From positions 1-64,000 of the forward strand of contig JADGRF010000040.1 of the NCBI GenBank assembly GCA_017881055.1: a DNA stretch of 64,000 nucleotides, given 5' to 3'. Numbering within the stretch: position 1 is the first letter of the stretch; each line of letters opens with the position of its first letter. The position numbers and the translations under genes were made by a program. The notes beneath the pieces are model-generated. The model did no database searches. It had not been told where the DNA came from and was given only the letters and a program-made list of their open reading frames with translations. Source of the stretch: Sandaracinaceae bacterium. Lineage in GTDB: Bacteria > Myxococcota_A > Polyangia > Polyangiales > JAFGIB01. Positions 6,090 to 62,962 of this stretch are shown piece by piece.

Positions 6090-6575
6090 CTACTTGCGGT
6101 GACGCTGCTCGACCTGCGCGAGCAGCTCGACGCCTGCTGCCCCACGATCGCCGGGCTCTGTGTCGAACCAGGCTGCGAGCAGCTCTTTCGCGAGATCATC
6201 GGCGAGCGTGCGGTTGGACAAGCACAGCACGTTCGCGTGGTTCCAGACGCGTGCCGCGGCGGCTTGTCCCGGGTCGGTGCACAGGGCGGCCCGGACGCCT
6301 GCGACCTTATTGGCGGCGATGCTGATGCCGGTGCCCGTCCAACAGAAGAAGATGCCTTGTTCGCAGCGCCCACTCGCCACCGCCTCGGCCGCTTGTTCAG
6401 CGATCACGGCCCAGCCGTGGGGGGCCGCAGGCTGCTCCGCGGGTAGGTTACTAGCTTCCTCGTTCCCCTCGGCGATCGCGCCGAACGGTACGACCTCGTG
6501 CCCGCGCTCCGCGAGCCAGCGCGCGACGGTCGCGTGCACGGGGTACGATTCGTCGGAACAGAGCGCGATCCGCAT
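6090..6575 (-). CDS. rpiB: RpiB/LacA/LacB-family sugar-phosphate isomerase with an unusual insert
   Basis: This 161-residue protein interconverts aldose and ketose phosphates, classically ribose-5-phosphate and ribulose-5-phosphate. The catalytic segment GIFFCWTGTGISIAANK carries the expected active-site Cys (C78), with VRAALC and NHANVLCLSNR following. Residues about 40-52 (EASNLPAEQPAAP) are extra compared with what I know of close relatives, where FGA...G is followed within about a dozen residues by WPEVAEQ-type sequence. The DNA for this insert (about 6416-6454) matches the hairpin repeat found at 42.6 kb, with TACCCGC-GAGCAGCCTGCGGC nearly identical on the minus strand. The insert is about 39 bp, so the frame is kept. 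It converges with the preceding glycosidase. Confidence 0.85.
   Translation of the reverse strand: MRIALCSDESYPVHATVARWLAERGHEVVPFGAIAEGNEEASNLPAEQPAAPHGWAVIAEQAAEAVASGRCEQGIFFCWTGTGISIAANKVAGVRAALCTDPGQAAAARVWNHANVLCLSNRTLADDLAKELLAAWFDTEPGDRGAAGVELLAQVEQRHRK
6416..6454 (+). repeat. Hairpin element copy inside rpiB
   Basis: Stem arms CCGTGGGG (6416-6423) and CTCCGCGG (6435-6442) pair with two G-T wobbles. They enclose GCC-GCA-GGC and an unpaired TG. The tail GGTAGGTTACTA follows. The plus strand reads in the same orientation as the 42.6 kb array, with GCCGCAGGCTGCTC shared exactly. It lies wholly within the rpiB coding region, antisense to it. Confidence 0.75.
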
Positions 6576-16681: not shown

Positions 16682-18158
16682 CGTCGCAGAGCTTCCGTTG
16701 CAGTTGCTGCTGCGTCGGGAGCGTAGCTGGGTGCGCGAGTCGGTCGTCGTGGTGAGCGAGGACAAGCCGCAGGGCACCGTGCTGTGGGTCAATGCGCGGG
16801 CGCGAGAGCGCGGTGCTCTGCCAGGTCAAAGCTACGCGCTGGCGCTCTCGATCGTGCCTGGCCTACGTGCGGGAGTCGTGGCGGACGTGGAGCTTCGCGA
16901 GGCGCGCGAAGAGCTCATGATCGAGTTGTGGCGGTTTTCGCCGCGCGTCGAAACCGCAGAAGAGCAGGGCGTGTTCTGGCTCGACGCCAGCGGGCTCGGT
17001 CTGTTGTTTCCGAAGCTGTCCCGTTGGGCTCACGAGCTGCGCGTGCGTCTTTCCGTGTGTGGCTTTGCGGCCAACGTGGTGGTCGGTTTTTCGCGTTTTG
17101 GAACGTACGCAGTCGCGCGCGCCGGCCGTGACAACCGCGTGTTCACGAGCGCTGACGAGGAACGAGCCTCGTTCGTGGGTGTCCCGCTCGCGTGCCTCGA
17201 CATCGAGCCGGAATTCCGCGATGTGCTGCACAAGCTCGGCGTGCACAGTATCGCGGATCTGTTGCAGCTGCCGGCTGCAGGGCTCCTGCAGCGCTTCGGC
17301 AAGATCGCGCATCGTCTGCATGCGCTCGCGGCGGGCGAGCTGCTCTCGCCATTCGATCCCACGCGCTGGCTCGAGCCGCTGGCCTCGTGCGCACACTTGG
17401 ATGACGCCGAGACGAGCTCTACGGCTCTTCTGTTCGTGATCAAGCGTCTGCTCGACGCGTTACTGCCCAAGCTCGTCGTGCGCGGTCAAGCGCTGTCTGC
17501 GTTGCGGTTTACCTGCAAGCTCGATCGTGCCGCGGGGCAGCTCGGGCCCGAAGAGCTACGTCCGGCGGTGCCCACGCTTTCGAGCAGCGAGCTGATGGAC
17601 CTCGTGCGCTTGCGCTTGGAGACGCTGACGCTTGCCGCAGGTGTGATGACGGTGGAGCTCGACGTTACGGGTGTCGAAGCTTCCGCCGAGCAGCTCAGCG
17701 TGTTCGTCGAGCAACCTCGTCGCGATCTCGCCGCAGGCTCGCGCGCGCTGTCGCGTCTGCGTGCCGAGTTCGGAGAGGCTGCAGTCGTAGCTGCCGTGCT
17801 CACGCCGGGGCATCTGCCGGAAGCGTGCTTCGTATGGAAACCGATCGCGCAGCTGCGCTTGCCGCGCTCTGCGGTACGCGTCGCCAGCGGGAATCGTCCG
17901 CTGGTGCGACGCATCCATGCCAAGCCGGAGACGTTGCACGCGCCACCGCGGCACGTACGCGACGACGGCTGGCTGGTGCGCGGAGCCCTATGCGGTCCCG
18001 TCACGCATCAAGCGGGACCGTTCATCGTGTCGGGTGGTTGGTGGGTGCGCGAAGTGCACCGCGACTATCGAATGCTGCTCACGCGGCGCGGAGATCTGTT
18101 CTGGGTCTTTCACGATCGTCGCCGTCGTCGGTTTTTCCTGCATGGCGAGGTGCAGTGA
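16659..18158 (+). CDS. imuB: ImuB, Y-family polymerase-like mutasome subunit
   Basis: This 499-residue protein starts at GTG 16659 inside the end of imuA. ImuB resembles Y-family polymerases but usually lacks catalytic acidic residues and acts as the hub that links ImuA and DnaE2 to the beta clamp. Here the N-terminus has [16 protein letters not shown] where a Y-family enzyme would have a DMDAFYA-type motif. [35 protein letters not shown]-type palm sequence and [25 protein letters not shown] (helix-hairpin-helix) follow the family order. The dnaE2 start overlaps the stop (TGATG). Expressed from the lexA2 promoter. Confidence 0.9.
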
Positions 18159-21100
18159 TGGTCCACGCGTGCGCACCGCTGTGGTGCAAGAGCAACTTCT
18201 CGTTTCTCGAGGGTGCGAGCCACCCCGACGAGCTGATCGAGGAAGCGCAGCGGCTCGGGTTTTCGTCGCTAGCGTTGACGGACCGCGACGGTGTGCACGG
18301 TGTCGTGCGTGCGCATCAGAAAGCTTTGGAGCTCGGCATGAAGCTGATCGTCGGCTCCGAGATCACGATCGATGACGGTTCCACGATCGTGCTGCTCGCG
18401 AAGGATCGTGCGGGCTACGCCAACTTGTGTCGGCTGATCACACGCGGTCGCTTGCGCCACGAAAAGGGTAAATCCAGCGTGAGCTGGGCCGAGGTGTGCG
18501 AGCACGCGCCTGGGCTCATTGCGCTGTTCGGCGGCGACAGATCGCTGCTGCTAGCGCCCGAAGAGCCGCTGCTCGTGACCAACCAGCTGCGGGATGCGTT
18601 CGGCGAATCGCTCTACGCGCTGTGGACGCGCCACCGACGTGCCAAAGAGCCAAACGTCGAGGCGTTGCTGCGCGAACGCGCCGCTCGCTACGAGTTGCCG
18701 CTCGTGGCTGCAACCGAGATTCTCTATCACACACCCGCGCGAAGGCCGCTGCAGGACGTGCTCACTTGCATCAAGCATCGCGTCACGCTGCAGGAAGCGC
18801 GTACGCTGCTCAAGCCGAACGCGGAGCACGGGCTCAAGGGCCCTCATGCGCTCGGCGCCTTGTTCGTCGATGCGCCGTCCGCGCTCGAGCGCAGCGCCGA
18901 GATTGCAGCGCTCTGCAGTTTCTCGCTCGGTGACATTCGCTATCGGTATCCGTCCGAAAACTTGCCGGATGGGTCCACGTCGTCGTCGTGGCTGCGCAGC
19001 CTGGTGTCTTCCGGTGCACGCAAACGCTACGGGAACGAGGTTTCTTCGGCGGTTCGGCTGCAGCTGGACAAAGAGCTCGATGTCATCGACCGGCTCGACT
19101 ACTGCGGCTACTTTTTGACGATGTGGGAGATTGTCGAATTCTGCAATGCGCAGGGCATTCTCTGCCAAGGTCGAGGGTCAGCTGCAAACTCTGCGGTGTG
19201 TTATTGCTTGGGCATCACGGCGATCGATCCCGTGCGCATGGGCCTTTTGTTCGAGCGATTTTTGTCGATCGAGCGCGCCGAGCCGCCGGACATCGATCTC
19301 GACATCGAGCACGAACGTCGCGAAGAAGTGATTCAGCACGTTTATGCGAAGTACGGACGCACGCACGCAGCGATGGTCGCAAACGTGATCCGCTATCGTT
19401 CGCGTTCGGCGTTGCGGGACGTGGGTAAAGCGCTTGGCATGCAGGAGACTACGCTCGATCGCATTGCCAAGTTGCTTTCGCACTGGGATAAAGCGGACGG
19501 CGAAACGCTGCGCGTGGCAGGCCTCGACATGGACGCGCCGCTGACTCGGCACTTGGTCGAGCTGTCGGAAGAGATCCACGGGTTTCCAAGGCATCTGTCG
19601 ATTCACCCAGGAGGTTTTCTGCTCGGGCACGAGCCGGTGCACGACCTCGTGCCGATCGAAAACGGTGCGATGGTCGATCGAACCGTGATCCAGTGGGACA
19701 AGGACGACGTCGAGGCGATCGGCCTGTTCAAGGTGGACTTGCTCGGGCTCGGTGCGCTCACGCAGCTGCACATGGCGTTCGACCTGCTGCGTGTCGAACG
19801 TGGGGTCGAGCTGTCGATGGCCACGATCCCCCCGGAAGATCCCGCGACCTACGCGATGATCCAGCGTGGCGATACGGTCGGAGTATTTCAGATCGAGAGC
19901 CGTGCGCAGATGGCGATGCTGCCGCGGCTTCGGCCCGAGAACTTCTACGATCTCGTGATCGAGGTCAGCATCGTGCGCCCAGGCCCGATCACCGGCGGCA
20001 TGGTCCATCCCTATCTGCGTCGTCGCAAAGGCGAAGAAGAGATCACGTACCCGCACGAGTGCCTGATCCCCGTACTGAAGAAGACTCTGGGCGTTCCGCT
20101 GTTTCAGGAGCAAGTGATGCGCTTGGCCGTGGTTGCGGCCGACTACACCCCCGGCGAAGCGGATCAGCTACGGCGTGACATGGCTGCGTGGCGAAAGAGT
20201 GGGCGGATCGAGTCGCACCGTGAACGCTTACTCTCGCGCATGCAGAAAAGGGGCATACCAGAGGAGTTTGCCGATCGCGTGTTCAAGCAGATCCTCGGCT
20301 TCGGCGAGTACGGCTTTCCGGAGAGCCATGCGGCGAGCTTCGCGTTGATCGCATACGCCACGGCATACCTGCGCTGTCATTGGCCGGCCATCTTCACGTG
20401 CAGCCTGCTCAACGCGCAGCCGATGGGCTTCTACTCGGCTGCGACGATCGTCGACGACGCCAAGCGACACGGCGTGATCGTTCATCCGATTCGCGTCCAC
20501 GACAGCGCCGTCGAGTGCACCTTGGTAGAAGAGAATGGTGTGCGCATGGGTCTGCGTTACGTGAAAGGGTTGTCCCGCGAGCAGGCGCTGCGCATCGTGA
20601 AAACGCGCGAGCTCGAAACGTTTGCGTCGCTCGAGGATTTCGTGGAACGCACTGCACTCGATGCCAAAGCGCTGTCGGTGCTGTCGGAGGCAGGCGCTTT
20701 CGATGGCTTCGGCACCGCGCGCCGCGATGCGCTGTGGGATGTGCGCTCCCTTTTGCGCGAGCGCGACACGACGCTTTCACTCAATCGGTTGGCCAGCAGC
20801 GCGAGCTTCGCAGCGCTACTTCCACTCGAGGAAATCGTCTGGGACTACCGCAGCACGCAGCACAGTCCGCGCGCCCATCCGTTGTCCATGCTGCGGAAGG
20901 AGCTGCGTAAGCAGGGGTTGCCCAATGCGTTTGACATCGGCGCGCTGCGCCACGGAACGCGTGTCCGCTACGCGGGCCTCGTGATCTGTCGTCAGAGGCC
21001 AGGCACGGCGTCGGGCGTGACGTTCATGACTCTCGAAGACGAAACTGGTTTCGCCAACGTAGTGCTCTGGAAGCGCGTCTTCGATGCGCAAACGCTGCTC

Positions 21101-21238
21101 GCTCGCACGGCTTCGTTCCTCGGTGTGACGGGGAAGATTCAAACCGAAGGCGGTGTGGTTCACATCGTCGCCGAAGAGCTCTGGGAGCCGCACGTACAAG
21201 ACGCGCCGCTTTCACCCAAGAGTCGCGACTTTCATTAG
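18158..21238 (+). CDS. dnaE2: Error-prone DNA polymerase III alpha-type subunit DnaE2
   Basis: This 1026-residue polymerase is the third mutasome member (ImuC). It has a PHP domain at 1-200 ([24 protein letters not shown]), the catalytic palm with [15 protein letters not shown] carrying the two active-site Asp residues, then [17 protein letters not shown], and a C-terminal OB-fold ([25 protein letters not shown]). This matches DnaE2 in length and motifs rather than the larger replicative DnaE. The start is ATG 18158, overlapping the imuB stop. It performs translesion synthesis under SOS induction. The stop codon's last base is the first base of a hairpin element that fills the gap to the converging kinase gene. 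Confidence 0.97.
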
Positions 21239-21273
21239 CGAAAAGCCGAAGGCTGTTTCGCGTGTATATAATC
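21238..21273 (+). repeat. Hairpin element at the dnaE2/kinase convergent junction
   Basis: Stem GCGAAA (21238-21243) pairs with TTTCGC (21256-21261). Inside are AGCC-GAA-GGCT and an unpaired G at 21255. The tail GTGTATATAATC runs into the kinase stop codon at 21272-21274. It has the core architecture of the 42.6 kb and nuo copies and may act as a terminator in both directions. Confidence 0.75.
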
Positions 21274-24200
21274 AAGCGCCGGAAGTGATCTCGTCGGTCA
21301 CGTTGCGCGCGATCGCCTCGAGCACGGACTTCCGAATGGGCCGAAGCATCTCGCTGCCGATGCGCAAGGCCACTGCGCCGATCAGCTTGCTGCTGCGGCC
21401 TCCGGTGGCGAGCATGATCGTCGCACAGCGTTCGTCGTTGGTACCGCCCTCGCTGCCCGGTGCGACGACGGCAATCTCCATGGGTGCATGCGCGTCGCCG
21501 GGAGTCGGCGGGTCGATGTTCGCACGCGTGGCTTCGAAGCGCTCCGAGAGCAAGCGCTCGACGTCGTCGGTGGCTTCGCGAGCCGAGAGATTCGCGACGA
21601 GCCTCAAGCGCTCTTCGCGCCAAAGATACAGATGCCCCGACGTGCCCGCGCACTGCTCGACGATGATGTGCAGCGCACGCGCCGCGCGCTCATCGAGGTT
21701 CTTGCAGTCGTCGAACAGCTCGTCGATGCTGGCGATCTGTCGCTGGGTCGTGACCCGCGTCACGGCTTCTTGACTCGGAGGAATCGACGGTGCGTGACCC
21801 TCGCGGGTCTCGAGCTCTCTGAGCCCTTCTGCGACTCGCTGTGCGCGCATCAGTAACGACGGGTTACGCGTCAGCGCGTACCAGCGCTTCATGAGGTCGA
21901 CGTGTGCGTCGCGACGTCCACGATCGCGAGCCTGGTCCGCGACCTTCGCGCCAACCTCGTGCAAAAGGCCGACCATGACGGGCTGGTCCGCGTCCTTCAT
22001 CTGCTCCATGAGCCGATCGATGCGTGCCAGCGCGGACGCCGTGTCGTGAAGCTCGGCCTCGGCGCGAGCCAGCTGCAGCTCGAGCGTCAACGTCATCGCC
22101 GAGGGCACCGCCTCCCGCGCGGCATCGCTTGCCAATGCGGTTTGCATGAGCTCACGCGCGCGATGCGGATCTCCGACGGCGAGCAGCATGTCCGCGTAAC
22201 TCGTGTACAACGAATCCCAGCCAGCGATGTCTCCGGGCTTCACCGCCGGAATCCACTTGGCCATGGTCGTCAGCGCTTCTTGCGGTTTGCCGAGGCTGAA
22301 GCTCAGGTACGCACGCGACTGATCCAAGAACGGCGCCAGCACCGGATACTGCGGCGTGAGCTGCACCAGTAGCTCTCCGCTGCGTCGCAGAGCTGCAAGA
22401 TCCATCATGCGTTGCGCAACGCGCAGATCGATCAGCGTGCGCCAGACATCGAACTGGAACTGCAGCCCGGTCTGGATCGTGTGCATGTGCAGCTTGTCGC
22501 GATGGGCCTCGGCCTTCTCGCGCTCGCCGCGCATCAGGTGATAGACCATGCGAATCTGATGCGCCGCCATCGTCAGCTCCGGCGTCGTGATGCCGCCTTG
22601 CTGCGCGATCTCGGCGCTGCCGGGCTCGAGCACGCTCGGATCGCTCGTCAGCTTCGCCAGCTCGTCGATCATGTCGAGCGCGCGCTGTCCGCGCACCGAG
22701 TACTGCGTCTCGATCATGCCGAGGCCGATGTAGATGCTCGCGATCACGCCGCGCCGCGCCGCAGAGCCGATGCGACCACCGAAGTTCTGCGAGGCTTTCG
22801 CCAGCTCGAGCGCCTTTTGCTGGTGGTTGCGCGCTTGCTCGGGCATCGAGCGCAGCGTGAATGTCGCACCGCGCAGAAACAGCGCCGTCACCTGACCCAT
22901 CGGACCCGCTGCCGAGAGCATCTCGGCCTGCGTGGTCAGTCGCTCCATTCCCACGATGTCCATCGTGGACGTGCGCATAGTCATCAGCGCATAGGCGGTC
23001 CGGTAGAACGCTGCAATCGCCGTCAAGGGGCGCGGTCCGCGCTTGCTGTGTGGGGTGAGCCAGCGTCGCATCGTCGCGAGCAACACCGCGATCACGAGGC
23101 TTGCGGTCGCGCCAAACAGCGGACGCAAGGTCTCCGCCATGGGCGCGCCTGCATAGTAGAGCAGGGCGATCGCCGTCTCGTCGCCGTAACGTGCACAGAT
23201 TCGTCGGTCCAACGAGCCAACCATCGTCGTGCGTAACCGCAAGCACTCGCGCGGCGCACGCCCCTGTTTTTCATACAGCTCGAGCGCTGCTTCCAGGGCC
23301 GGCAGTGCAGCTGACGTTGCGATTCCTCGGCCCGCGAGCTTTGGTGCCGCTTCGGCTAGCAAGTCGGCGCCGCGTCGTTCGTCGCCGCCGCGCAGCACGT
23401 GCCAGCCCGCCTCGACTCGTTCCTCCGGACGTTGCGCGCCGCCTGCGAGCAGGGCCTCGCCGAGGCGCCGGTGCAACAGCTGGCCGCGCTCGGGCGCGAG
23501 CTCCGACAGCAATACTTCGCGCAGCGCTTCCTGGCCGAAGTGATAGCCATCGGGTGCGTCCGCGAGCACACCCTTTGCGACCAGCTCATCGATCGTCCGA
23601 AATACATCCGCCGGGGTCTTCTCTTCGGCTAACGCGAGGCAGAGCTGCAGCGGGATTGCACCGCGGCGGACGCATAGCGCTTCAGCCATTCCGCGCTCGG
23701 CCGGTGAAAGCGCCGCGGCCCGCGCGCTCATCGTGGCCGCGAGGCTCAACGGGAGTTGATCTTTAGGCACCGATGGCGGCAGCACCCACATGCCATCCGA
23801 GAAGCGAATCAGACGCTTGTCCGCGAGGTGCCGTGACAGCTCGATGATCTGCGTCGGACTGCCTGTGGTGATGTCATGGATCCAGTTGCCGAGCTCGTCG
23901 ACGTTCGGCACGTCACCGAACATCGAACGGATCAGCAGCAACGTGTCCTTGCGGCGCAAGCGATGAATGCGAATGCGACGCGACTGATCCGCGATGGCAG
24001 CTACCGCTTCCGGTGCCGACACGGAGCTCGCCAGACGGCGCGTCGCAATCAGCAGCACGCGCCTATGCTTGGCTTCTTGCGTCAGCACGCCCAAGAGCGC
24101 GGCCGAGCCTTCATCGACGCGATGCAGATCGTCGACCAGAATCACGAGCGTGTGATCTTCACTGACGGCCAAGAGCCATGCTTGGAATGCCGCATGCAGC

Positions 24201-37724: not shown

Positions 37725-38735
37725 ATGGCAATTAAAGCTGAGTACATCTGGGTTGACGGAACGGAACCGACCAAGCAACTACGCTCGAAGACGAAGATTC
37801 TGCCGGGTCCCGTCAAAGACGTGAAGGCATTGCCCGTCTGGGGCTTCGACGGTTCGAGCACCAATCAGGCCGAAGGCCATGCCTCCGACTGCATCATGAA
37901 GCCGGTGTTCATGTGCCCGGATCCAATCCGCGGCGGTGACAACATCCTCGTCATCACCGAAGTATTCTCGGCCGATGGCAAGCCGCACTCGACCAACACG
38001 CGTGCGCCGCTGCGCGCCGTGGCGGAGAAGTACGCTGCGTTCGAGCCGATGTTCGGCATGGAGCAGGAGTACACGCTGCTCGGTGAAGACGGCCGTCCGC
38101 TCGGCTTCCCCGAGGGTGGTTACCCCGCGCCGCAGGGTCCGTACTACTGCAGCGTCGGCGCGAGCACCGCGTTCGGTCGCGAGATCGTCGAAAAGCACAT
38201 GGACGCATGCTTGGCTGCCGGTCTGAAGTTCGCCGGCATCAACGGCGAGGTCATGCCGGGTCAGTGGGAGTACCAGATCGGCGTTGCCGGCATCCTCGAA
38301 GTTGGCGACCACCTGCACCTCGCGCGCTGGCTGATGCAGCGGATCGCGGAAGATCACGGTGTGTCGGTGACGCTCGATGCGAAGCCGGTCAAGGGCGATT
38401 GGAACGGCACCGGTTGTCACACCAACTACTCGACCAAAGAGATGCGCGCCGACGGCGGTATGAAGGCGATTCTCGCGGCCTGCGAGAAGTTCGGTCCCCG
38501 CGCCGACCTGCACATCGCGAACTACGGTGCCGGCATCGAAGAGCGCCTCACTGGCAAGCACGAGACCGCTTCGTACAAGCAGTTCTCGTTCGGCGTCGGC
38601 AACCGTGGCGCTTCGATCCGTATCCCGCTCGCGTGCGAGCAGGAGGGGAAGGGCTACCTCGAGGATCGTCGCCCCTGCGCGAACTGCGATCCGTATGTGG
38701 TGGCTCGCCTGATCGTCGAGACCACCTGCGGGTGA
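37725..38735 (+). CDS. glnII: Type II (eukaryote-like) glutamine synthetase
   Basis: This 336-residue enzyme makes glutamine from glutamate and ammonia with ATP. Its length and motifs are of GSII, the short form found in eukaryotes and some bacteria, rather than the 470-residue GSI: WGFDGSSTNQAEG, FGMEQEYTLL, GPYYCSVGA, INGEVMPGQWEYQIG, HTNYSTKEMR and NRGASIRIP. The active-site Glu residues fall in these motifs. GSII lacks the adenylylation loop of GSI. It follows glnB by 194 bp. The last codons (IVETTCG) are encoded by DNA that closely resembles the inverted copy of the palindromic repeat that follows the stop. No other glutamine synthetase is seen in the window. Confidence 0.95.
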   Translation: MAIKAEYIWVDGTEPTKQLRSKTKILPGPVKDVKALPVWGFDGSSTNQAEGHASDCIMKPVFMCPDPIRGGDNILVITEVFSADGKPHSTNTRAPLRAVAEKYAAFEPMFGMEQEYTLLGEDGRPLGFPEGGYPAPQGPYYCSVGASTAFGREIVEKHMDACLAAGLKFAGINGEVMPGQWEYQIGVAGILEVGDHLHLARWLMQRIAEDHGVSVTLDAKPVKGDWNGTGCHTNYSTKEMRADGGMKAILAACEKFGPRADLHIANYGAGIEERLTGKHETASYKQFSFGVGNRGASIRIPLACEQEGKGYLEDRRPCANCDPYVVARLIVETTCG

Positions 38736-39131
38736 CCTGGGGATGACATACGCGCAGGTCGTCTCGACGACCTGGGGATGACATACGCGCAGGTCGTCTC
38801 GACGACCTGGGGATGACATACGCGCAGGTCGTCTCGACGACCTGGGGATGACATACGCGCAGGTCGTCTCGACGACCTGCGGCTGACCGACACGCTCGGT
38901 TAGACAGCGGCCTCCGGATCGGCACTTTGCCAGTTCGGGGGCCGTCGTCGTTTCGCTCGTGTTCGTACGCGGCTGGCTTTCAGTGGCAGCGGATCTCGCG
39001 CAAGTCTGTTTGACGCCCTCCGCGCGGGTCGGCTAGCATCGAAAAATGTGTCCGCGCGGGCCGTTTTCGCAGGCCTCGGCTCGGGGTTCGCTGCTGCGGG
39101 CTTCATCGGTGAACGCGCGGCGCGGCTAAAC
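38736..39131 (+). other. glnA-psd intergenic region
   Basis: This holds the four-copy palindromic array (38755-38879) and then about 250 bp with no gene that I can support. An open frame extends from GTG 39048 into psd, so part of this stretch may be an N-terminal extension of Psd. No promoter boxes could be fixed. Confidence 0.6.
38755..38879. repeat. 35-bp palindromic tandem repeat array after glnA
   Basis: Four identical 20-bp palindromes (CAGGTCGTC-TC-GACGACCTG) start at 38755, 38790, 38825 and 38860. Each is separated by the same 15-base linker GGGATGACATACGCG. A partial linker copy also follows the glnA stop at 38740. On the minus strand the hairpin is followed by CGCGTATGTCATCC, like the GGGTATGT tail of the other hairpin elements. 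Confidence 0.9.
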
Positions 39132-42555: not shown

Positions 42556-42606
42556 GTCCGAGAGCTAAACGCTCCCGGGCTCACCCGTCAAAAAATGCGC
42601 CGCTCC

Positions 42607-42766
42607 GCCGAGAGCCGCAGGCTGCTCGGCGGGTATTTCGCTACTTGGCCGAGAGCCGCAGGCTGCTCGGCGGGTATTTCGCTACTTGGCCGAGAGCCGC
42701 AGGCTGCTCGGCGGGTATTTCGCTACTTGGCCGAGAGCCGCAGGCTGCTCGGCGGGTATGTGATTA
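42607..42766 (+). repeat. Four-copy 41-bp hairpin element array
   Basis: Copies begin at 42607, 42648, 42689 and 42730. Each has outer stem GCCGAG with CTCGGC, core AGCC-GCA-GGCT and a bulged G, then the tail GGGTATTTCGCTACTTG. The last copy has the variant tail GGGTATGTGATTAAGG, which contains the TAA stop of the minus-strand TSP3 gene. The spacers are identical, so this is not a CRISPR. Confidence 0.92.
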
Positions 42767-44293
42767 AGGTTTGCCAGCCGCCTTGGGCGCAGTAGCACCG
42801 TGCGTCGGAGCGGGAGGGCCGCCCTCTTCGGGGCAGCCGTCGTCGTCCTCGAAGCCGTCTTTGTCTTCGGCTTGATCGGGACACTGATCCTGATCGTCGG
42901 GGATGCCGTCGCCATCGAAGTCGACTTCGGGGCAGCCGTCGTCGTCGCCGAAGCCGTCGGTGTCCTCGGGCTGGTCCGGACACTTGTCCTTGGAGTCCTC
43001 GATGCCGTCGCGGTCGCGGTCGTCGTCGGGGCAGCCGTCGTCGTCACGATCGCCGTCTTTGTCTTCGGCTTGATCGGGGCACGAGTCGTAGCCGTCGAGG
43101 ATGCCGTCGTTGTCGTTGTCCTTGTCGGGACAGCCGTCTTGATCTTGGAAGCCGTCCGGATCCTCGGGATCGTTCGGACACTTGTCCTGCGCGTCGGGGA
43201 TGCCGTCGCCGTCGTTGTCGGTGTCGGGACAACCGTCGTCATCGAGGTAACCGTCTTTGTCTTCCGGCTCGGTGGGGCAGGCATCGACGTTGTCACCGAT
43301 GCCGTCGCCGTCGCTGTCGATGCCGGCCGGCTGGTACGCAGCACCCGCGATGATGCGGAACACAGGTGTACCGACGCCGGAGAGCACGCCGGCACCGCCG
43401 CCCGCCTGGAACACGAAGTCCCCCTGCGTGAGCTTGCCGCCGAGGCGCCACTCGATCGGATTGCCGTCGGTGTTGCGGTTGAAGCGCGTCGCGCCCGCGA
43501 CTTCGCTGACGACTGCGAGCAGCGAGGTCACGTCGAAGCCCGCTGCGACGCCGTACGTCATCTCCGAGCCGGTCGTCGTGGAAAGCAGCTGACGCTCCGG
43601 GCGGAACGCGCCGCCGAGGTTCGCGCCGAAGCGAAGACGAGCCATTCGATACTCGGCCGCGAGATTCGCGCCGGCCGTGACGCCGTCGTCGCCGATGTTG
43701 TGACCTTTGGCGATCGCATTGCCGAGCGGCAGCGTCATGTAACCGATGCCAGCGAGCAGGAACCCTTTGGTGCCTTCACCGGCCAAGCGCACCTTCGCGG
43801 ACAAGCGCGGGTCGCCGACGCCGAACGCGCTGCCACCGCGGATGTCGACGTACGGCTGGCTGAGCGCAGGACCCGTGCTCGCGTGGTAGCTGTCACCGGT
43901 CGTGTACACGAGCGGCAGGAGCAGACCGAACTGCACGCGCTGCCACATGGTCAGCGTGCCGCCGAAGTAGCTCGCCAGCTGCATCTTCACGATGTCGCGC
44001 TTGGAAGCTTCGAGCGAGCAGTTGCTGGTGTTGCCACCTGGGCACTTCGCTTCGTAGATCACGAACGGGCGATGCGCGTAATCGACGACGATTTCTGCGC
44101 TCGGCGTCACGTGACCGCCGACCATCGCGCCATCGACCTGCAGATAGTTGCCGGCACCGACCGCTGGCACGAAGCGGTTGGTAGAGACCTGTTGATTGGG
44201 GACCTTCTGAGCGTGCGCGGTACCGGTCCCTGAAGGACCGAGCATCACGCAACCCAGGCACAATCCGATTAGGAAGCCGAGCCTTCCGCGCAT
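42764..44293 (-). CDS. Outer-membrane protein with thrombospondin type 3 repeats
   Basis: This 509-residue exported protein starts at ATG 44293 with AGGAG upstream and has a signal ending in TAHAQ. Residues about 40-320 are amphipathic strands typical of a beta-barrel (FGLLLPLVYTTGDSYH, FGVGDPRLSAKVRL, TYGVAAGFDVTSLLAV). Residues 325-490 form Ca-binding thrombospondin type 3 repeats (DSDGDGIGDNVDACP, DNDGDGIPDAQDKCP and similar). Relatives usually end in an OmpA-like peptidoglycan-binding domain. Here only PAPTHGATAPKAAGKP follows and the stop falls inside the hairpin array, so the domain may have been lost. It is upstream of, and divergent in direction from nothing: the same-strand tonB operon ends 238 bp before it. 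Confidence 0.88.
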   Translation of the reverse strand: MRGRLGFLIGLCLGCVMLGPSGTGTAHAQKVPNQQVSTNRFVPAVGAGNYLQVDGAMVGGHVTPSAEIVVDYAHRPFVIYEAKCPGGNTSNCSLEASKRDIVKMQLASYFGGTLTMWQRVQFGLLLPLVYTTGDSYHASTGPALSQPYVDIRGGSAFGVGDPRLSAKVRLAGEGTKGFLLAGIGYMTLPLGNAIAKGHNIGDDGVTAGANLAAEYRMARLRFGANLGGAFRPERQLLSTTTGSEMTYGVAAGFDVTSLLAVVSEVAGATRFNRNTDGNPIEWRLGGKLTQGDFVFQAGGGAGVLSGVGTPVFRIIAGAAYQPAGIDSDGDGIGDNVDACPTEPEDKDGYLDDDGCPDTDNDGDGIPDAQDKCPNDPEDPDGFQDQDGCPDKDNDNDGILDGYDSCPDQAEDKDGDRDDDGCPDDDRDRDGIEDSKDKCPDQPEDTDGFGDDDGCPEVDFDGDGIPDDQDQCPDQAEDKDGFEDDDGCPEEGGPPAPTHGATAPKAAGKP

Positions 44294-62674: not shown

Positions 62675-62962
62675 TTTGGGCCTAGCGAGCGCCGCTTTCT
62701 AGCGCGCGCACGACTCGGGGGATAGGGCGGCCCACATGCACGCACCCGAATGGGGGCGGCCGGGCCCAGCGCCGACCGCTCGCCCGGCCCGACAAGCGTT
62801 GACACCCGGATAGCGTACGACTAGAAACGGGTGGCACTTTTGTGCGGGATTTACGAACAATTCCGCGATGGTTACGGCCCGCGAAACAGCCTTCGGCTTT
62901 TCGCGGAGGTCACACACCCGCGAAACAGCCTTCGGCTTTTCGCGGAAGCGAAATTCCACGGC
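62675..62962 (+). promoter_or_regulatory. nuo operon upstream region with promoter and two tandem hairpins
   Basis: TTGACA (62799-62804) is followed after 17 bases by TAGAAA (62822-62827), a good sigma-70-type promoter. The hairpins at 62880-62905 and 62919-62944 lie downstream of it, so both should be transcribed in the nuo leader. No other gene is visible in this 288-bp stretch. Confidence 0.7.
62880..62944 (-). repeat. Two-copy 39-bp hairpin element array in nuo leader
   Basis: Two identical 26-bp hairpins start at 62880 and 62919. On the minus strand each has outer stem CGCGAAA with TTTCGCG, core AGCC-GAA-GGCT and a bulged G. GGTGTGTGACC follows one copy and GGCCGTAACC the other. Same core and bulge as the 42.6 kb array, with a different but self-complementary outer stem. 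Confidence 0.9.

Follow-up and report, generated by a model that had tools for sequence, protein, structure and literature searches.

The rpiB gene studied here carries, in frame, a hairpin element that adds 13 residues to its product, and this insert is very probably a copy of a dispersed, non-autonomous palindromic element of ~41 nt, restricted to one genus, that would be spread by an enzyme and survive in places where it is tolerated. The gene lies in a stretch of 64,000 nt (the window) from the draft genome of a Sandaracinaceae bacterium (G000; 5.88 Mb, 341 contigs), which we compared with drafts of two other species of the genus (G001 and G002), the three being 86-94% complete.

Apart from the insert, rpiB is intact. 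Its alignment with four genomes of the same family contains one net gap of 39 nt, i.e. 13 amino acids: the RpiB proteins of the two congeneric genomes (75-76% identity) and of two further genomes of the family are 146-148 residues long and lack the insert. These relatives have DEP-WA or EEP-WA at the site (EQP-WA in one), whereas the window protein has EE-ASNLPAEQPAAPHG-WA. The extra DNA lies within 6414-6455, with 6414-6452 and 6417-6455 as alternative placements of the net 39 nt. A preliminary description, made from the letters of the window, had located an insert of about 39 bp at 6416-6454 and stated that it keeps the reading frame; the length is exactly that of 13 codons, and the placements fall within 2 nt of that location. 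The same description proposed aligning RpiB homologs from sister species. In all 34 relatives aligned, chosen among 80 further loci, the 13 residues are missing from the site. The relatives without the insert, taken with the four family genomes, include some that have the repeat family and some that do not.

That description held that the insert would be an old loop, and not an element insertion, if close relatives without the repeat also had it; no such relative was found among those aligned. A rival reading along these lines takes the 13 residues for a long-standing loop of an ordinary kind in this RpiB subfamily, resembling the repeat by accident. The loop does vary slightly in length, as two of the 34 relatives (L093 and L121) have small, unrelated length differences near the site, but no aligned relative, including both genomes of the same genus, has the insert, a model built independently of rpiB recognizes it (see below), and the same element occurs in many unrelated genes. 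This alternative is already refuted by the empty sites, and we consider it extremely improbable. Judged from the alignments, the insertion in rpiB is shown to be the derived state, with a net gain of 39 nt.

The sequence GCCGCAGGCTGCTC is found exactly in both the rpiB insert and the array at 42.6 kb, and the insert matches the first unit of that array at 84% over 31 nt. The preliminary description had called the two nearly identical, which is correct for one half of the hairpin; the other arm of the rpiB copy has decayed. When up to 2 mismatches are allowed, GCCGCAGGCTGCTC occurs 10 times in the window, compared to 2.7 expected, and none of 100 shuffled sequences reached 10. In addition, a covariance model, constructed from a 48-column alignment of 20 copies from which rpiB was left out, detects the copy in rpiB (6410-6457; 33.2 bits, E=3e-11), and a pattern derived from the 42.6-kb array has 116 matches genome-wide in G000 versus 0 for the reversed pattern. 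Together, these three results exclude a chance resemblance of the rpiB insert to the repeat.

The column profile of 166 clusters revealed a sharply bounded hairpin, with information at background level beyond ~41 positions. In the orientation of the model, the consensus is CT(A/C)CGC(C/G)(G/A)A(G/A)AGCCG(N)AGGCTG(C/T)T(C/T)(C/G)GCGGGTATGTNA(C/T)(T/C)AA. The stem comprises 11-12 pairs with one bulged G, and its core pairs covary strongly: pair 5-24 is C-G in 89 copies, G-C in 86, and A-T in 7, and pair 6-23 is G-C in 136, A-T in 41, and C-G in 8. The 3-nt loop has the form C(GNA)G (GAA 92, GCA 71, GTA 10), a loop that is exceptionally stable in DNA. On the gene strand, nearly all copies begin with an unpaired tag, (TTA)GTNACATACC, followed by the hairpin; in the surveyed G000 DNA, TNACATACC has 107 occurrences, compared to one for the reversed sequence. 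Of the three sense frames, one meets stop codons in the tag, another is often blocked, and the last is stop-free, encoding IPAEQPAAL(G/R)G. No match to Rfam was found within the window. The mismatches give no support for selection acting on the hairpin in the mRNA by way of G-U pairs, as the trend is the opposite (14 sense G-U versus 29 antisense G-T).

We surveyed ~1.6 Mb, of which 1.09 Mb came from G000 and 0.50 Mb from G001 and G002. The DNA was taken in pieces of at most 20 kb surrounding listed copies, and in this copy-enriched sample the covariance model has 141 matches in G000 and 91 in G001 and G002. Element matches number at least 138 in G000, at least 136 in G001, and at least 54 in G002, so that two of the three species have more than 100 copies. 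Among the matches listed, which may miss weak ones, none came from the 181 other genomes of the order (184 examined), and the element thus appears to be specific to one uncultured myxobacterial genus. The copies in the window and others referred to here are collected in Table 1. Six G000 contigs (C12, C36, C39, C110, C129, and C273) end inside or beside element arrays, so that the draft probably understates how many units the arrays hold. Two other repeats were noted in the window. At 38734-38908, four exact 35-bp tandem units contain GATGACATACGCG together with a palindrome of another kind, CAGGTCGT..ACGACCTG; the element tag may here be joined to another hairpin. Beside the 42.6-kb array, at 42818-43312, lies a coding repeat with a 99-bp period that is rich in Asp and looks calcium-binding by eye.

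Table 1 Coordinates of rpiB, its paralog, and element copies (positions in the window unless a locus is given).
Feature	Position	Strand	Evidence or context
rpiB, RpiB/LacAB family sugar-phosphate isomerase, 161 aa	6090..6575	minus	PF02502 E=2.8e-32; orthologs in sister genomes
Element copy inside rpiB	6413..6454	+ (model orientation, antisense to rpiB)	covariance model, empty sister site, column-profile boundaries
Single unit	21231..21278	+	at 3' end of plus-strand gene 18158-21238
Four-unit head-to-tail array, 41-bp period	42605..42770	+	downstream of minus-strand gene 42764-44293
Two head-to-tail units, 39-bp period, CGCGAAA-stem subfamily	62878..62950	minus	
Second, canonical rpiB paralog	L140:10031-10513 (G000 contig C100)		13-residue in-frame copy at N-terminus
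Half-units	L139:9238; L140:3645; L151:3797; L159:17310; L172:12505 and 14383; L176:8770		

In order to identify copies within genes, we called genes with a home-made hexamer model, by which 91% of the surveyed G000 DNA is coding, and retained as strictly internal those clusters lying in a gene with a score of at least 100 and at least 60 nt from both of its ends. Twenty clusters passed. One of these was rejected as a readthrough artefact: at L211:1219-4680 (G001), two ORFs are joined through two elements with an open frame, and the alignment with the sister genomes starts only where the second gene itself begins. The remaining 19 clusters all run in one direction with respect to their host gene (p=4e-6); 17 of them are read in one frame, encoding variants of the IPAEQPAAL(G/R)G peptide. 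Among the host genes, pheS, gltB, carB, uvrB, and hflX all score above the NCBIfam equivalog cut-offs; further hosts encode a MaoC-domain protein, an amine oxidoreductase, a transporter permease, an ABC-F-like ATPase, a formamidopyrimidine-DNA glycosylase, and an EF-Tu-type GTPase resembling CysN. In the surveyed part of G000, 21 of 137 copies are internal although 91% of the DNA is coding, as expected if most insertions into genes have been purged. Separately, the gene at L235:4214-4801 (G002), which by eye resembles that of ribosomal protein L15, has an N-terminus that is apparently extended by two elements, its start codon being uncertain.

Avoidance of stop codons could in principle fix the orientation of the internal copies. 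In intergenic copies, the sense frame encoding IPAEQPAAL is free of stops in 91% of cases, compared to 71, 94, and 55% for the antisense frames; because one antisense frame is thus open in 94%, stop avoidance alone fails to explain the orientation lock. The shared frame and peptide of 17 of the 19 internal clusters would also fit a functional peptide motif spread by selection or gene conversion, rather than a DNA element. Against this, the majority of copies are intergenic, lie beside stop codons, and show compensatory changes in the stem, unrelated enzymes carry the element at unrelated positions, and the frame used is the one that, among the sense frames, is stop-free in the most copies. We give a peptide motif next to no chance.

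Twelve genes gave clear alignments over the insertion site, and each of them has a counterpart without the additional residues in a sister species. Eleven of these genes are filled in G000 (rpiB, its paralog, pheS, gltB, carB, uvrB, hflX, the MaoC protein, the permease, and two unnamed proteins), and the ABC-F-like gene shows the reverse situation, being filled in G002 and empty in G000. Empty sites were read from per-gene alignments only, and four sites with poor or ambiguous alignments (L174, L135, the first site of L173, and the GTPase in L240) were excluded from the 12. The rpiB paralog, for instance, reads MTESSDIPRKQPSAFPGIKPIAIASDHAG in its N-terminal part in G000 versus MTEATKPIAIASDHAG in G002. 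Net insert lengths are mostly 30-45 nt (39 in both rpiB and its paralog, 45 in uvrB, 36 in hflX and in the ABC-F gene), so that not every gene shows a single clean insertion of one unit; in gltB, carB, and the MaoC protein, both junction and length are uncertain since the surrounding loop also varies. From this presence and absence between species, we infer that the element is mobile.

The orientation bias extends to the intergenic copies. In spacers between co-directional genes, 78 clusters share the direction of the upstream gene and 6 have the opposite one (p=5e-17). Between the hairpin and the upstream stop codon, the commonest distances are 8 nt (19 cases) and 5 nt (12 cases), and at these spacings the tag itself can provide the stop codon. 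One explanation is that the orientation is retained for an effect of the gene-strand hairpin on the transcript, namely 3'-end protection, termination, or pausing, the intragenic copies being by-products. The 78:6 ratio and the position of the tags 5-8 nt from stop codons agree with such a role, as does the predicted folding of the consensus RNA (~-19 kcal/mol, z ~-3.5). However, in the column profile the gene strand after the hairpin has background composition without a U-tract, and thus lacks this feature of intrinsic terminators, G-U pairs are not favored among the gene-strand mismatches, and the internal copies have the same orientation though no transcript needs to end there. We regard a role in the transcript as a serious alternative, while stopping short of calling it probable.

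The arrangement of the copies bears on how they arose. All 43 multi-copy clusters are head-to-tail, core identity is 94% within clusters versus 81% between them, and no target-site duplication was detected (p=0.08). In several intergenic arrays, half-units with the tag and one arm are located just upstream of a full unit; since they keep the tag and end before the loop, they suggest copying that stalls at the hairpin. The one-way intragenic copies, the same direction in more than 90% of the intergenic clusters of co-directional spacers, the head-to-tail arrays, and the tag-side half-units would be consistent with insertion or copying that is tied to transcription or to the RNA strand and is not the work of a RAYT, in which case the element would form a palindrome class with its own GTNACATACC tag. 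We advance this tentatively, as a possible but doubtful mechanism.

The element might also be a standard RAYT-mobilized REP whose transposase has been lost, or missed in drafts that are 86-94% complete. Being an imperfect palindrome with a high copy number, located downstream of genes and carrying a tag that can give a stop codon, it does resemble REPs (PMC3733652, PMC2817692). Yet the GTAG/GT(A/G)G head is missing from the 5' side, where the conserved tag is GTNACATACC, and GTAG appears only at the 3' end, in 35 of 163 clusters; the arrays are exclusively head-to-tail, an arrangement that is rare among REP dimers (PMC3733652). Moreover, no repeat-flanked RAYT (Y1_Tnp) gene was found in the three drafts: G000 and G002 have no Y1_Tnp match, and the two weak matches in G001 (L273 and L274) have no element nearby. 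We therefore consider a standard RAYT-mobilized REP rather unlikely.

Palindromes inside genes are known among both Rickettsia palindromic elements (RPEs) and REPs (PMC10969869, PMC3733652). Di Nocera et al. described REPs that provide stop codons and REPs that lie in uvrA, uvrB, and other genes (PMC3733652); the uvrB gene of R. conorii also bears such repeats (PMC3733652, PMC10969869), and RPE-4 and RPE-6 are CGTC REPs. The preliminary description had likened the rpiB insert to RPEs, as mobile palindromes tolerated in proteins, and this likeness is borne out by the same element lying in frame in about 20 genes in three species, with empty sister sites. Like RPEs (RPE-1, and also RPE-4 and RPE-6), it is a many-copy palindrome dispersed within one genus, inserted in frame in unrelated genes whose relatives are empty (12 of 12 alignable), with a recurrent peptide in a tolerated place. 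The reading of the rpiB insert as an RPE-like insertion is thus supported by sequence comparison, although host and size set the element apart from RPEs proper: the reviewed RPEs are ~150 nt long and found in Rickettsia, compared to ~41 nt in myxobacterial genomes of ~6 Mb whose closest named relatives are myxobacterial MAGs. The element further differs from RPEs in its own tag and in an orientation lock that extends to intergenic copies.

In size the element is closer to REPs, and it has the features of a REP in the broad sense, i.e. a short imperfect palindrome, mostly extragenic and downstream of genes, in more than 100 copies. It shares with the GTAG and CGTC REPs that have intragenic members (Opitutus terrae, Thauera, Xanthomonas; PMC3733652) a hairpin of 20-40 nt with an unpaired tag at one end, a location near gene 3' ends, a tag that can provide the stop, and some intragenic copies; it differs from them in the GTNACATACC tag, the exclusively head-to-tail arrays, the lack of a RAYT link, and the single orientation to transcription. 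The terminal CGTC, A/T first stem pairs, and 4-5 nt loop of CGTC REPs were not found, the loop here being 3 nt (GNA). With RAYT-mobilized REPs and BIMEs (PMC2817692), it has in common a GC-rich imperfect palindrome that can fold as single-stranded DNA and more than 100 copies per genome, but here there is no GT(A/G)G head, no BIME of alternating orientation, and no transposase found.

Short dispersed palindromes confined to one genus are also represented by the Wolbachia palindromic elements (WPE). These are named in PMC3733652 and are likened to the present element by description only, their host being unrelated. Overall, the element works like RPEs and intragenic REPs, and it is best filed with the REP/RPE kind, with a tag of its own.

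In the explanation that we favor, copies would spread through a putative enzyme acting on the single-stranded hairpin, and most insertions into genes would be lost. The survivors at gene ends would be those whose tag provides the stop codon, and the survivors within genes, as in rpiB, those placed in tolerant loops and read in the one open, bland frame. The rpiB copy may then decay like ordinary coding sequence, the mRNA hairpin weakening while the RpiB fold is kept. The changes in its arm produce G-T pairs on the antisense strand and A-C mismatches on the mRNA strand, and the predicted mRNA fold goes from ~-19 kcal/mol for the consensus to a different fold of -12.5 kcal/mol. An AlphaFold model of RpiB (19 sequences) has a mean pLDDT of 89.6, and residues 39-52 are the sole segment below 50. 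They form a loop between the strand at 27-32 and the helix at 54-67 that precedes the CWTGTG segment, in agreement with the preliminary description, which had put the insert after strand 2 and before the active-site segment. The insert is thus modelled as a flexible, disordered surface loop in an intact fold.

In-frame palindromes are best known from Rickettsia, i.e. obligate intracellular bacteria with reduced genomes, whereas the present case comes from a genus with genomes of ~6 Mb. It offers a set of natural insertions of 10-15 residues in housekeeping enzymes, with uninserted sister enzymes available for comparison, and it shows a path from a mobile hairpin to protein sequence.
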